Source of the DNA: Paractinoplanes ferrugineus
GTDB lineage: Bacteria > Actinomycetota > Actinomycetes > Mycobacteriales > Micromonosporaceae
DNA length: 64,000 nucleotides
Assembly: GCF_016862195.1 (NCBI RefSeq)
Contig: NZ_BOMM01000039.1
Location: 62,001-126,000, forward strand
Direction: 5' to 3'
Shown: piece by piece, positions 20,375 through 54,919 of the stretch
How positions within the stretch are numbered: position 1 is the first letter of the stretch
Layout of the letters: every line of letters begins with the position of its first letter
The notes under the pieces: model-generated
What the model saw: only the letters and a program-made list of their open reading frames with translations
The model's database searches: none
What the model was told of the DNA's origin: nothing
Position numbers and translations under genes: made by a program

Positions 20375-20386
20375 GTTGTGCACAAC
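20375..20386. promoter_or_regulatory. Probable OhrR operator
   Basis: GTTGTGCACAAC is a perfect 12-bp palindrome starting 37 bp upstream of the ohrR-like start. A related TTGCGCAC half-site follows at 20391-20398. OhrR proteins bind AT-flanked dyads of the TTG-centre-CAA kind in ohr promoters, so autoregulation of the ohrR-ohr operon is the straightforward reading. Confidence 0.6.
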
Positions 20387-20411
20387 TGAATTGCGCACTA
20401 CCGTTCATCGC

Positions 20412-20870
20412 ATGGCGGAGGAACGAGCCCAGACCACCGGCCTCGAGCAGATGATCTGCTTCGAGCTCTACGCCGCAAGCCGCGCCATGACCGCCCTCTA
20501 CCGCCCCGTCCTCGACGACGCCGGCCTGACCTACCCCCAATACCTCGTCATGCGCGTCCTCTGGCACCGCGGCCCCGTCACCGTTCGTGACCTCAGCCAA
20601 ATCCTCCACCTCGACAGCGGCACCCTCTCCCCACTGCTCAAACGCCTCGAAACGCAACACCACATCCGCCGCGAACGAGGCACCCCCGACGAACGCACCG
20701 TCGTCATCCACCTCACCGACACCGGCGCCCAACTCGAACACCGAGTCGCCGACGTCCCCCAGCAGATCGTCTGCGCCCTCGACCTCAACCTCGACGAATA
20801 CCGGCAACTGCACCACCTCCTCGGGCGCATCAGCGCCGCCACCCCGCACAGTTCCGGAAAGGAACACTGA
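20412..20870 (+). CDS. ohrR: OhrR-type MarR-family peroxide sensor
   Basis: This 152-residue MarR protein has the OhrR start LEQMICFELYAASRAM, with the peroxide-reactive Cys at position 16, and the conserved LTYPQYLVMRVLWHRGPVTVRDL winged helix. A second Cys at 121 suggests the two-Cys class, where oxidation forms an intersubunit disulfide. Oxidation by organic hydroperoxides releases the repressor from DNA. The gene overlaps the ohr gene by one base (TGATG), and a palindrome lies upstream, so this is a self-contained peroxide-inducible operon. Confidence 0.9.
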   Translation: MAEERAQTTGLEQMICFELYAASRAMTALYRPVLDDAGLTYPQYLVMRVLWHRGPVTVRDLSQILHLDSGTLSPLLKRLETQHHIRRERGTPDERTVVIHLTDTGAQLEHRVADVPQQIVCALDLNLDEYRQLHHLLGRISAATPHSSGKEH

Positions 20871-21289
20871 TGGCCTCCGTCTACACCGCCAGCTCCACCG
20901 CCACCGGCGACGCCCGCAACGGCCACGTCCGCTCCAGCGACGGCGTCCTCGACCTCGACCTCGCGGTCCCCAAGGAGATGGGCGGCCCCGGCGGCGCCCT
21001 CACCAACCCCGAGCAGCTCTTCTCCGCCGGCTACGCCGCCTGCTTCCACAGCGCCCTCAAAGCCGTCGCCCGCGCCCAGAAGATCACCCTCGAAGACACC
21101 GCCGTCACCGTCGACGTCGGCATCGGCCCCAAGGACGGCGGCGGCTTCCAGCTCGACGTCGCCATCGAGGTCGAGATCCCCGGCGTCGACGAAGCCACCG
21201 CCCAGCAGCTCATCGAAGCCGCCCACCAGGTCTGCCCCTACAGCAACGCCACCCGCGGCAACGTCGACGTCGCCCTCAGCGTCGCCTGA
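20870..21289 (+). CDS. ohr: Organic hydroperoxide resistance protein Ohr
   Basis: This 139-residue OsmC/Ohr-family thiol peroxidase has the two catalytic cysteines: Cys58 in SAGYAACFHSALK and Cys122 in HQVCPYSNATRGNVDV. Arg16 (DARNGH) and Glu49 (NPEQLF) complete the usual active site. It reduces organic hydroperoxides using lipoylated protein partners. GGAAAGGAA precedes the ATG, which overlaps the ohrR stop. Family length is about 140 residues, so it is intact. Confidence 0.95.
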   Translation: MASVYTASSTATGDARNGHVRSSDGVLDLDLAVPKEMGGPGGALTNPEQLFSAGYAACFHSALKAVARAQKITLEDTAVTVDVGIGPKDGGGFQLDVAIEVEIPGVDEATAQQLIEAAHQVCPYSNATRGNVDVALSVA

Positions 21290-21323: not shown

Positions 21324-22289
21324 TTACAAGCCACGCAGCGCGCGGTTGGTGCGGTTCGCCCGCACCGCCGCGCGCTGCTGTTCCGCCGTCACCTCGATGT
21401 AGCCCTGCGACGTCGTCAGCGAGGCATGCCCCAGCAACCGCATGATCTCCGACGCGTTCGCCCCGTCCTCCGCCAGCCGCGTCGCGAACGTATGCCGCAA
21501 AGCATGCAACTGCGCCCCCCGCGGAACCCGATCAGCGAGCCCCGCCCGCCGATAACACGACTCCACCAGATATTGCAGACCACCCCGCTTCAGCGCCGCC
21601 CCCCGCCGATCCACCAGCAGGGGAGCCCGCACGTCGGCCCGCCCGAACCGCACCCGCCGGCTGTCCAGATAACGCTCCACCAGACCATCGAGCTCCGGCT
21701 CGATCGGCACCGTACGCGGCCGCCCACCCTTACCAGCCACCTCGACCCGACGCTCCCCGTCCCGCCCGAGCACATCCCCGATCCGCAACGCCAGCAACTC
21801 CGACAGCCGCAACCCCGCACACAGCGCCAGCGCCAGCACCGCCAGATCCCGCTCCGGCCACGGATCCCGCTGCCGCTCGTCACTCTGGCTGACCGCGGAG
21901 AGTAACTGCTCCGGCGTGTCCTCGCCGCGCAACGGCTTAGGGGAGTGGGGCGGCAGTTTCGGCTTGTCCACCGCCGACATCGGATTGCCGGGCACCACCT
22001 GCTCCGTCACCAGGAACGTGAAGAACGCATTCCACGACGACCAGGCGCGAGCCACCGAGGCGGGAGCGCGGTTCGCGGCAAAACGGGCAAAGGCCTGCCG
22101 CAACAGGCGGGGGGAGAGGTCACCCAGAGTGACATTCTCTCTGTCCATCAACCCCAGAACCGACCCGAGATCCCTCCGGTACGCCTGCAGCGTGTGCTCC
22201 GACGGCTTCCGGGTAGCCCTGGCCGCCAGAAAATCCTCCACGAGTTCCGCAACTGATTCCCCGCCCGCCACGCCTGCCCCAAACTGCAT
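21324..22289 (-). CDS. Tyrosine recombinase (XerC/XerD-like) next to dif-type sites
   Basis: This 321-residue protein has a SAM-like core-binding domain (VAELVEDFLAARATRKPSEHTLQAYRRDL) and a catalytic domain with all residues present: Arg in CAGLRLSELLAL, Lys in GKGGRPRTVPI, HALRH, GHASL and the nucleophile Tyr in SQGYIEV. Size and layout match XerC/XerD rather than phage integrases. The ATG at 22289 lies inside a dif-shaped palindrome, and a near-consensus chromosomal dif site sits 390 bp upstream. It may be one partner of the chromosome-dimer resolution pair or a dif-associated recombinase. Which Xer it is cannot be decided here. Confidence 0.85.
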   Translation of the reverse strand: MQFGAGVAGGESVAELVEDFLAARATRKPSEHTLQAYRRDLGSVLGLMDRENVTLGDLSPRLLRQAFARFAANRAPASVARAWSSWNAFFTFLVTEQVVPGNPMSAVDKPKLPPHSPKPLRGEDTPEQLLSAVSQSDERQRDPWPERDLAVLALALCAGLRLSELLALRIGDVLGRDGERRVEVAGKGGRPRTVPIEPELDGLVERYLDSRRVRFGRADVRAPLLVDRRGAALKRGGLQYLVESCYRRAGLADRVPRGAQLHALRHTFATRLAEDGANASEIMRLLGHASLTTSQGYIEVTAEQQRAAVRANRTNRALRGL

Positions 22290-22308
22290 AAGTCATATTA
22301 TGCAGCAC
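22281..22308. other. dif-shaped palindrome overlapping the recombinase start
   Basis: CTGCATAA (22284-22291), a 6-bp centre and TTATGCAG (22298-22305) form a perfect dyad. The arrangement ATAA-N6-TTAT is exactly that of XerCD/dif sites (11-bp arms AAACTGCATAA and TTATGCAGCAC). It covers the first codon of the recombinase. It also contains CATAAT/TAATAT, usable as a -10 box on the minus strand. It could be a recombination site, an autoregulatory operator, or both. Confidence 0.55.
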
Positions 22309-22309
22309 T

Positions 22310-22678
22310 TTGCGGTATCTGTCTTGTTCGGCGTCCAGCCGGATTTGCCCGCTTATCGCGCCGCCGCCTCGGTCCGGGCCTCGCGCACCCGCCGCCTCGG
22401 CGGAGTCGCCTCTGTGGTTGCCGGGGAGAGGTGGCCTCACCGCGACGTCCCGACCGCGTGGATCTTGCGCGCCCGGATCGGTCAACTTGGCGGCAAACCG
22501 CCTGGTTCGGGCACTGCACCGGCCGTGGTGCGGGGGTGACCGAAGCCGGCGCTTCCGGACCGCACCCACCGGCTCGAGTTCGGTCCCGGCGGCGGCCCGG
22601 GGGCGAAACCGTGGGAGAACAGCGCACACATGAATTCGCGCTCGCGTGCCCCTTCCGACGCGGCCCCGATTCGCTTCT
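22310..22678. other. Non-coding stretch between the two dif-type sites
   Basis: This roughly 370-bp stretch has short open frames in several directions but none with a ribosome binding site, family resemblance or consistent codon pattern. I see no RNA gene, repeat array or integrase target other than the two flanking dif-type elements. Confidence 0.5.
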
Positions 22679-22706
22679 ACTTTACATAATGTAAATTATC
22701 GACCTG
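22679..22706 (-). other. dif: Probable chromosomal dif site (XerCD resolution site)
   Basis: Read on the plus strand the site is ACTTTACATAA, spacer TGTAAA, TTATCGACCTG. Its reverse complement matches the published actinobacterial dif consensus (recalled) at 23 of 28 positions: XerC arm CAGGTCGATAA, spacer TTTACA, XerD arm TTATGTAAAGT (10 of 11 in the XerD arm). It is an AT-rich island in a non-coding gap. A tyrosine recombinase gene is 390 bp away. This marks the likely replication terminus of a circular chromosome. Confidence 0.8.
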
Positions 22707-22748: not shown

Positions 22749-23477
22749 ATGCTGGTTCGCTGGGTTACCGGGTTTCTCGACTCCCCCTCGCCGACGGCGG
22801 AGTCGTTCTGGCTTGCGGTGACGGGATCGACGTTGTCGTCCCGGCGCGGTGGCGGGGTGTTCGCGACGTTGGTGCCGGACGGTGGGGACGCTTTCCTGCG
22901 CGTACAGCTGATCGGGGCCCGGGAATCGCCGAAGGCGCATGTGGATCTTCATGTGGATGAGGTGCCGGCGGCCGCCGCGCAGGCTGAGGCGCTGGGGGCG
23001 GTGCGGGTGTCGGCGGAGCCGGGTCTGGTGGTGTTGCGCTCCCCCGCCGGGATTCTGTTCTGCCTGGTGGAGTGGTCCGGTGAGGCGGTGGTGCCGGCGG
23101 CGGTGCGGTGGCCGGGCGGGCAGCGCAGTGTGGTGGATCAGTTGAGCTTGGACGTTCCGGCGGCGGGCTATGACGCGGAGATGGAGTTCTGGGCGGCGTT
23201 GACCGGGTGGGCGCGGGTGGCGTCGGATCTGCCGGGGTTCGCGTTTCTCGACGGTGGTGACGCGTTGCCGTTGCGGTTTCTGTTGCAGCGGATCGGCGGG
23301 GACGCGGCGGGCGTACATCTGGATCTGGCTTGTGACGGGGTGGATGCCGAGGTGGTGCGGCATCAGGGGTTGGGGGCGTCGGTGGTGCGGCGGGTGGCGG
23401 GTGACTGGACGACGTTGCGGGATCCGGTGGGGCGGGAGTATTGCGTCACCGCGCGGGCGCCCCGTGGGCGTAGATGA
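22749..23477 (+). CDS. Two-domain VOC (glyoxalase-like) family protein
   Basis: This 242-residue protein is built from two glyoxalase-like halves of about 120 residues each. The first has HVDLHVDEVPAAAAQAEALGAVRV and LRSPAGILFCLVEW. The second has LDVPAAGYDAEMEFWAALTGWA and LRDPVGREYCVTAR. Such tandem VOC proteins are common in actinobacteria, usually of unknown substrate. The ATG at 22749 is 42 bp after the dif site, so the promoter may overlap it. The 3' end overlaps the convergent methyltransferase region by 32 bp. Confidence 0.8.
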   Translation: MLVRWVTGFLDSPSPTAESFWLAVTGSTLSSRRGGGVFATLVPDGGDAFLRVQLIGARESPKAHVDLHVDEVPAAAAQAEALGAVRVSAEPGLVVLRSPAGILFCLVEWSGEAVVPAAVRWPGGQRSVVDQLSLDVPAAGYDAEMEFWAALTGWARVASDLPGFAFLDGGDALPLRFLLQRIGGDAAGVHLDLACDGVDAEVVRHQGLGASVVRRVAGDWTTLRDPVGREYCVTARAPRGRR

Positions 23478-53977: not shown

Positions 53978-54919
53978 TCACCCCTGACTGCGGCGGGCAC
54001 GCGCGGCGGCAAGGGTGTACGCCGGATCACGATCAAGATTGTGCCGATCCCGGTCGTAACGACGCGTGGTCCGCGGATCGGCATGCCCCATCGCATCCTG
54101 AACATCCTCCAGCGGCACACCCTCAGCCCGCGCCGCCGTCGCGAAAGCATGCCGCAACGAGTGCGGCGACAACCGATCCGCCGCCGGGATCCCCGCCTCC
54201 CGCGCCAACCGCCGGATCAACCGGAACACCGCATGCCGATCGATCCGCCCACCCGTCGACGTCATGAACAACGGACCATCCCCGCCACCCCGCGACACCA
54301 GGTAATCATCAAGCGCCGCCGCCGCCTCCACAGTCAGCACCCGCCGCCGCGAACGACCACCCTTACCGACGAACCGCACCGTCCGATGCCCGCGCTCCAC
54401 ACCCACATCCGACAGATCGAGGCCCACCAACTCCCCCACCCGCAAACCCAGATCCGCGAGCAACGTCACCACCGCCCGATGCCGCGGCCCCGCCGCCCGA
54501 GCCACCCCCAACAGGGCGTCGACCTCCTCCGGCGACAAACCCACAGTCTCCGAATGATCCCTCGACACGTACGGGCGATCCGCCCCACCCACCGGATTAC
54601 CGTCCACAGCCCGCAACTTGACCAGGAAGTCATACCAACTCGACAACCCCGACAACTTGCGCGCCACCGTCGCCGGCGCCAACCGCCGCGCCTCCAACCC
54701 CCGCGCATACGCGTTCACATCCAGGAACGACGCCCGCAACGGCTCCAACCCACGCTCCGCGCACCACCCCAACCAGCCATGCACATCACGCCTGTACGCC
54801 GCCCGCGTGTGCTCCGACAACCTCCGATTCGACAGCCACGCCTCAGTGACCTGCTCCGCCGCACCCAACTCGGCGACCGCGCCGCCACCCTGCCTCGGCA
54901 CCACCTGCATGGCGCCCAT
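53978..54919 (-). CDS. Tyrosine recombinase XerC/XerD-like, second copy
   Basis: This 313-residue recombinase has an N-terminal SAM-like domain (VTEAWLSNRRLSEHTRAAYRRDVHGWLGW) and a complete catalytic set: LADLGLRVGELVGL (Arg), VGKGGRSRRR (Lys), HSLRHAFAT, GHADP and TTRRYDR (Tyr). It differs considerably from the recombinase at 21324. ATG 54919 lies 4 bp after the ABC-F stop, so it is probably cotranscribed with it; the internal ATG at 54910 is an alternative. It could be the second Xer partner or an unrelated integrase. Confidence 0.83.
   Translation of the reverse strand: MGAMQVVPRQGGGAVAELGAAEQVTEAWLSNRRLSEHTRAAYRRDVHGWLGWCAERGLEPLRASFLDVNAYARGLEARRLAPATVARKLSGLSSWYDFLVKLRAVDGNPVGGADRPYVSRDHSETVGLSPEEVDALLGVARAAGPRHRAVVTLLADLGLRVGELVGLDLSDVGVERGHRTVRFVGKGGRSRRRVLTVEAAAALDDYLVSRGGGDGPLFMTSTGGRIDRHAVFRLIRRLAREAGIPAADRLSPHSLRHAFATAARAEGVPLEDVQDAMGHADPRTTRRYDRDRHNLDRDPAYTLAAARARRSQG

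Follow-up and report, generated by a model that had tools for sequence, protein, structure and literature searches.

Xer systems with a single recombinase are known to replace XerCD, and how a chromosome changes from XerCD to such a system is, to our knowledge, an open question. The closest described counterpart of the locus analysed here is XerCD/dif of Actinoplanes SE50/110 and Frankia alni, whose dif sequences are printed in the portions of PMC3364876 and PMC3025954, respectively, that we drew on. We observed the same site sequence, the same terminus position and likewise one XerC-type and one XerD-type recombinase, and additionally, beside dif, a third recombinase that comes with a separate dyad. 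We refer to this third Xer-type recombinase as XerX, a label of our own, and propose that the dyad (ATAA-N6-TTAT), which we name difX, is its putative site as judged from sequence. In titles and abstracts, mostly outside subscription journals, we found no report that these bacteria have, beside dif, an additional Xer with a separate site of its own.

XerS/difSL of streptococci and XerH/difH of epsilon-proteobacteria likewise consist of one recombinase with a site near its gene and a location at the terminus. In contrast to these, the XerX genome has XerCD/dif as well, the spacer of its dyad is 6 bp rather than the 11 of difSL, XerX has 321 amino acids where XerS and XerH have 354–362, and its sequence scores nearer to XerC and XerD than to XerS (77.7 bits against NF003462, below the cut-off of 267). 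With single-recombinase systems of the XerS, XerH and XerA type, XerX shares the R-K-H-R-H-Y residues and a dyad linked to both gene and terminus, but it is not the only chromosomal Xer: there are two canonical ones in this genome, and even those genomes in which no dif was found have one. Lactobacillus helveticus DPC 4571 also has two Xer systems, XerC, XerD and XerS together, the additional gene lying close to the shift-point of the skew; as described in the excerpt of PMC3025954 used here, no dif was found there and the case concerns one genome, whereas here both sites lie side by side over many genera.

The window, the whole stretch of 64,000 nucleotides that was analysed, is part of contig C39 (175,463 bases) of a draft genome of 9,407,631 bases in 129 contigs, and a homologue search with the C39 recombinase placed its named relatives in Paractinoplanes, Actinoplanes, Micromonospora and kin. 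Upon re-reading the sequence, we found the 28 bp that the initial annotation had described as dif to be ACTTTACATAA-TGTAAA-TTATCGACCTG as claimed. The agreement that it gave for the reverse complement, CAGGTCGATAATTTACATTATGTAAAGT, with a dif consensus (23 of 28 positions overall and 10 of the 11 XerD-arm positions) was borne out against the F. alni sequence in the consulted part of PMC3025954, to which the runner-up 28-mer of the whole window matches at 17 of 28; against the Actinoplanes SE50/110 dif in the excerpt of PMC3364876, the match is 24/28. The site is indeed an AT-rich island (71% A+T, compared to 28% for the window overall) in a non-coding gap between the ORFs 21324-22289 (−) and 22749-23477 (+), and the recombinase gene, put at 390 bp away, lies 389 bp from it (Table 1).

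Table 1 Coordinates of features around dif, counted from the first position of the window.
Feature	Position	Strand	Remarks
XerX gene	21324..22289	−	tyrosine recombinase, 321 aa from ATG; alternative GTG start 22271
Last GGGGGAG left of dif	22110..22116	+	points to dif; C39 84110
Dyad (proposed difX)	22281..22308	.	AAACTGCATAA-GTCATA-TTATGCAGCAC; 11-6-11 layout as in a Xer core site; overlaps annotated ATG
GGGGAG between dyad and dif	22423..22428	+	still points to dif; C39 84423
dif	22679..22706	−	minus-strand reading: XerC-type arm 22696-22706, spacer 22690-22695, XerD-type arm 22679-22689
First GGGGGAG right of dif	22781..22787	−	points to dif; C39 84781

The short dif pattern TTATGTNAAGT occurs once in the draft genome, which is weak proof by itself because the backward-read control also matches once. 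The longer core TCGATAANNNNNNTTATGTNAA, at up to one mismatch, has a single match and no backward match; this leaves one dif in the draft genome, and no better site was found elsewhere, in line with the initial annotation. At the same stringency the core is present in 110 of 150 family genomes. All 80 named relatives keep dif at the corresponding place, with identical orientation in every locus. Scored at 17 usually fixed positions, some Paractinoplanes cores (L020, L022 and L026) carry 3–4 changes, and XerX and the dyad are kept there. Two canonical Xer proteins are encoded elsewhere in the genome, on C52 and C5, with NF001399 scores of 358.7 and 289 bits (over the cut-off); their best models are XerD and XerC, yet they fall below those equivalog cut-offs. 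The site is very probably the chromosomal dif and, in itself, an ordinary one of an already known kind.

With the draft split into 129 contigs, we turned to relatives to assess whether dif lies opposite oriC. The dnaA gene was located in 34 genomes, selected largely for their dyad, of which 23 are single contigs (sizes rounded to 0.1 Mb). The distance between dif and dnaA was 0.470–0.498 of the chromosome in 22 of these 23, and 0.384 in G032. Together with a polarity switch in our own contig, described below, this supports the earlier claim that the window spans the terminus, and a circular chromosome is the likely arrangement. GC skew was a poor guide to the terminus here: the cumulative maximum of C39 lies at 93 kb and dif at 84.7 kb, ~9 kb apart (two-segment fit not significant, p 0.21); in G137 the fit puts the change 25 kb away from dif (p 0.032), and in G299 the skew turns 82 kb from the dyad.

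GGGGGAG ranked first among the heptamers when strand-biased words were learned around dif in G137 and G531. Contig C39 was held out from this step, and there the motif occurs +18/−1 times to the left of dif and +1/−22 times to the right. Across the 80 named loci, which share a genus with a training genome and hence are not fully independent, we counted +237/−0 left of dif, +0/−8 from dif to the dyad and +3/−264 on the other side; the shorter GGGGAG occurs +1/−48 times between dif and dyad. Eighteen loci of family f19, which appears to correspond to the Streptosporangiaceae in the GTDB sense (Nocardiopsis-like genomes of another order), gave +0/−1 for GGGGGAG and +4/−9 for GGGGAG in that interval. 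The signs between dif and dyad are those of the far arm, and polarity in dif-bearing genomes thus turns at dif; convergence of the motif on the dyad in these genomes was ruled out for the same reason. The GGGGAG between dyad and dif in the window also points to dif, so that the turn of polarity in this genome coincides with dif rather than with the dyad. Near dif the direction of GGGGGAG is nearly absolute and the motif is denser than farther out (C39, G137, G531 and the 80 named loci). GGGGGAG is a candidate for the FtsK-orienting motif of these actinomycetes: like the FtsK-orienting polar sequences KOPS and AIMS it points to dif on both arms, but in contrast to them it was derived here from sequence.

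The initial annotation did not include that the recombinase beside dif is neither XerC nor XerD and has a site that is apparently its own, nor the Xer-like dyad at the start of its gene. The XerX protein has the Pfam domains PF00589 and PF02899 and scores 177.3 bits against the XerC model (cut-off 335.15) and 163.6 bits against the XerD model (cut-off 329.6). A tree of 60 rows separates all XerX rows, whether chromosomal or from plasmids, from 30 canonical rows as a single clade (support 100/100); the canonical rows are the best 30 of the search and include only four of XerC type. These sub-cut-off scores, the separate clade and the canonical pair elsewhere rule out that the neighbour of dif is XerC or XerD. 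Among solved structures, E. coli XerD is the nearest in sequence (9.6e-27). The catalytic residues R161, K187, H262, R265, H288 and Y297 can be assigned, and all six are unchanged in 132/132 XerX sequences. XerX was found in 76 of the 150 family genomes (E up to 1e-32) and in 33 of 394 class genomes (E up to 1e-40).

The inner part of the dyad reads TGCATAA-N6-TTATGCA (22285-22304). At up to two mismatches it is the sole match in the genome; the backward control also matches once at that laxity, which we counted against the dyad. The exact dyad is present in 63 of the 150 family genomes, one in each, and in 30 of the 394 class genomes, with no backward match in either set (0/150 and 0/394). 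Its occurrence coincides with that of XerX: in the family, 62 genomes have both, 14 XerX alone, one the dyad alone and 73 neither (Fisher p 4e-27), and in the class the numbers are 29, 4, 1 and 360 (Fisher p 2e-38), p values that ignore the relatedness of the genomes. The exact dyads without XerX are those of G116 and G186. Both dif and the dyad were seen in all 80 named loci, with the dyad within 200 bp of the XerX gene start in each and at 276–2,673 bp from dif (median 497; 73/80 within 1 kb). Among the 63 family genomes with an exact dyad, dif lies within 1.1 kb of it in 60; the remaining three distances are 2.3 kb, 5.4 kb and 1.7 Mb, the last in G004, where we take the dyad to be a chance match. 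The DNA from dif to dyad is unalignable among 11 close relatives, in which both sites themselves are conserved.

To the extent that the arms change, they tend to change together. Over 100 sites (99 distinct), the arm covariation score was 0.194, compared to 0.094 for shuffled arms and at most 0.051 for slid ones; 85.2% of cells pair, and 102 cells were changed on both sides against 60.2 in shuffles. The number of pairs with a double-sided change was not above shuffles (6 vs 4.9; reached by 143/500). Rows were picked by their inner arms or by symmetry, so that pairing is inflated; columns 3-4/25-26 were unused in picking the 53 named-locus rows. For L169, L170, L172 and L173, the aligned row is the ATAA/TTAT dyad in place of a terminator-like hairpin. 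A third ATAA-N6-TTAT lies to the left of the window at C39 52,215, with the arms CACCATAA/TTATGGTC, symmetric at 7/11 positions. In G299, such sequences also occur at ~300,357 (L288) and ~326,830 (L289) of contig C4, ~0.2 kb beyond the matched part of two other tyrosine recombinases; 10 or 11 of their 11 arm positions match, and a gene-side dyad may thus be common in such proteins.

Deeper relatives separate the dyad from the gene. A dif is present in 15 of the 20 f19 loci examined, and 13 of these 15 have a dyad matching at no less than 9/10 positions at a distance of 301–950 bp from dif. The gene in these 13 lies 1.7–6.7 kb away from the dyad and, in the Nocardiopsis-like genomes, often on the far side. 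The other two dif-bearing loci have weaker dyads, 419 and 706 bp from dif. In deeper members of family f1, dyads with other arms lie 243–575 bp from dif in L187, L189 and L191-L196, where the dif of L194 has 2 mismatches, and 0.8–1.8 kb from it in L183-L186. By the criterion used, no dyad was detected at G062 (L190), L253 and L257. The dyad follows dif rather than the XerX gene. G516 and G454 carry a weaker dyad at the XerX gene (L149 position 1417 and L152 position 2522) and an exact one elsewhere, an arrangement in which the roles of operator and recombination site may be separate.

Seven f19 genomes (G470, G299, G516, G204, G406, G454 and G362) gave no dif in a whole-genome search at up to one mismatch, apart from one match in G470 that is without the ATAA core and that we take to be chance; a search at this stringency can miss a diverged dif, as in G007, which came out empty and had one with 2 mismatches. 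Each of the seven has one canonical Xer (score over 290 bits), which groups with the XerD-type rows of the tree, and the 19 other genomes of the same Xer search have two, each at least 249 bits. All seven keep XerX, with an exact dyad in six and a 1-mismatch dyad in G362. In G299, GGGGGAG occurs +101/−22 times to the left of the dyad and +13/−55 times to the right, a statistic never reached in 5,000 permutations, and the switch falls between 696,479 and 698,139, with the dyad at 696,842. Counts to the left and right of the dyad had the same sign in 19-kb loci from five of the seven genomes: they were +5/−0 and +0/−8 (L169), +8/−1 and +0/−2 (L170), 0 and +1/−12 (L171), +12/−1 and +0/−3 (L172), and +5/−0 and +0/−7 (L173). 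The left side is free of the motif for ~570 bp, placing the switch between about −571 and +23 of the dyad, which is the sole ATAA-N6-TTAT in these five loci. Polarity in the genomes where the search gave no dif would converge either on the dyad itself or on the former place of dif.

Relatives of XerX occur on 58 plasmid records, with 38–44% identity among the 30 listed, and those with dyads are on large Mycolicibacterium and Rhodococcus plasmids. Seven of the ten plasmid loci surveyed (seven named regions and three further) have a dyad matching at no less than 9/10 positions, compared to none in 40 shuffles of each; their arms are changed yet still match, as in GGATAA/TTATCC, ACATAA/TTATGT and AGATAA/TTATCT. 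In G492, an exact dyad is on the contig of the plasmid XerX gene, ~10 kb from the gene. A search of 50,697 phage records returned a single weak match (31%). The plasmid pairs resemble plasmid multimer resolution by a tyrosine recombinase and an adjacent site, which is the simplest role they might serve; XerX here differs in being chromosomal and beside dif.

Based on these sequence comparisons, the locus probably joins a chromosomal dif to an adjacent single-recombinase system in which XerX acts at its own dyad. XerC and XerD would resolve chromosome dimers at dif, at the replication terminus, in the known way. XerX, as a simple tyrosine recombinase, would bind both inverted arms of the dyad as a pair of identical monomers, bring together two dyads on sister chromosomes and exchange strands across the 6-bp spacer, so that the result would equal that of XerCD at dif; direction would follow from the asymmetry of the spacer. 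This would provide a second route by which dimers are resolved or sisters unlinked a few hundred bases from dif. In the Micromonosporaceae, where the dyad is at the gene start, its occupancy may also shut off the XerX gene as a form of self-regulation. The sequences show the two sites and the gene, how they co-occur and neighbour one another, and the turn of motif polarity at dif; from these we infer that XerX binds the dyad and exchanges strands there and that it resolves dimers or unlinks sisters, and the same applies to a possible connection with FtsK.

That the site is a chance AT-rich match and not dif is extremely improbable: the single backward match of the short pattern is what speaks for chance, against conservation at this place in all 80 named relatives, a position antipodal to dnaA in 22/23, a motif polarity that switches at the site and the published dif of a relative (PMC3364876, in the excerpt used). 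A more serious, if unlikely, alternative is that the dyad is an operator only, through which XerX or another regulator controls the recombinase gene while XerX acts at dif or elsewhere. Its gene-start position, within 200 bp in all 80 loci and overlapping the annotated ATG in the window, is operator-like, at least in the Micromonosporaceae, and the two other G299 tyrosine recombinase genes with nearby dyads fit the same picture, as does the weaker dyad at the gene in G516 and G454. We counted this position against a recombination site, as we did the second, weaker dyad at the gene in G516 and G454 with the exact one elsewhere, and the convergence of the polar motif on dif, not the dyad, in dif-bearing genomes. 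An operator is harder to reconcile with the Nocardiopsis-like f19 genomes, where the dyad stays near dif and the gene is kilobases off and often on the far side, with the G492 dyad ~10 kb from the plasmid gene, or with a dyad that has both the spacing of 6 bp and the ATAA/TTAT core known from Xer core sites.

That polarity points to dif across the dyad, and that the two sites stay within about 1 kb, would also be expected if the dyad were an accessory of dif, at which bound XerX shapes the synapse or blocks FtsK for XerCD and the dyad itself does not recombine. We consider this improbable, given that the distance and side of the dyad relative to dif vary (240 bp to a few kb) and that XerX and the dyad persist where no dif was found. 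The same persistence argues against XerX and the dyad being a fixed remnant of a mobile element, inserted beside dif in the past and now functionless at the terminus. Mobile elements that use dif and carry simple tyrosine recombinases are known (PMC5357621 and PMC8138268, in the parts consulted), and XerX relatives are found on the 58 plasmid records; yet the catalytic residues are unchanged throughout, both sites are conserved amid otherwise unalignable DNA, the family scan gave one copy per genome and the phage records gave just the one weak match. Neither were two dif or attachment sites found as the bounds of an element, the genome having one dif and one dyad, and such an origin is very unlikely.

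If XerX does act at its own dyad next to dif, a further step can be proposed tentatively, as possible though short of probable: that the two form a complete alternative terminus-resolution system, which many actinomycetes have in addition to XerCD/dif and which has taken the place of XerCD/dif in one clade or more, including that of the seven f19 genomes, so that genomes with both sites would be standing intermediates of a natural switch from two recombinases to one. Were this true, the families that keep both sites and the clade that seems to keep only the second would make the switch directly testable. It would also explain a protein family variously labelled XerC, XerD or integrase (going by the 120 listed of 1,497 proteins), and rare actinomycetes used in drug discovery would gain a terminus marker and a candidate FtsK-orienting motif.

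Downstream of XerX, the genes of an OhrR-like regulator and an Ohr-type peroxiredoxin lie in succession (20376-21289, +), an ordinary arrangement. At 53978-54919 (−), 31 kb from dif, we observed a further Xer-like tyrosine recombinase of 313 aa that scores below all XerC and XerD cut-offs. NF001399 matches with similar scores lie 5–34 kb from dif in G137, G003, G045, G106, G050 and G062, and far from it in G023 and G299.
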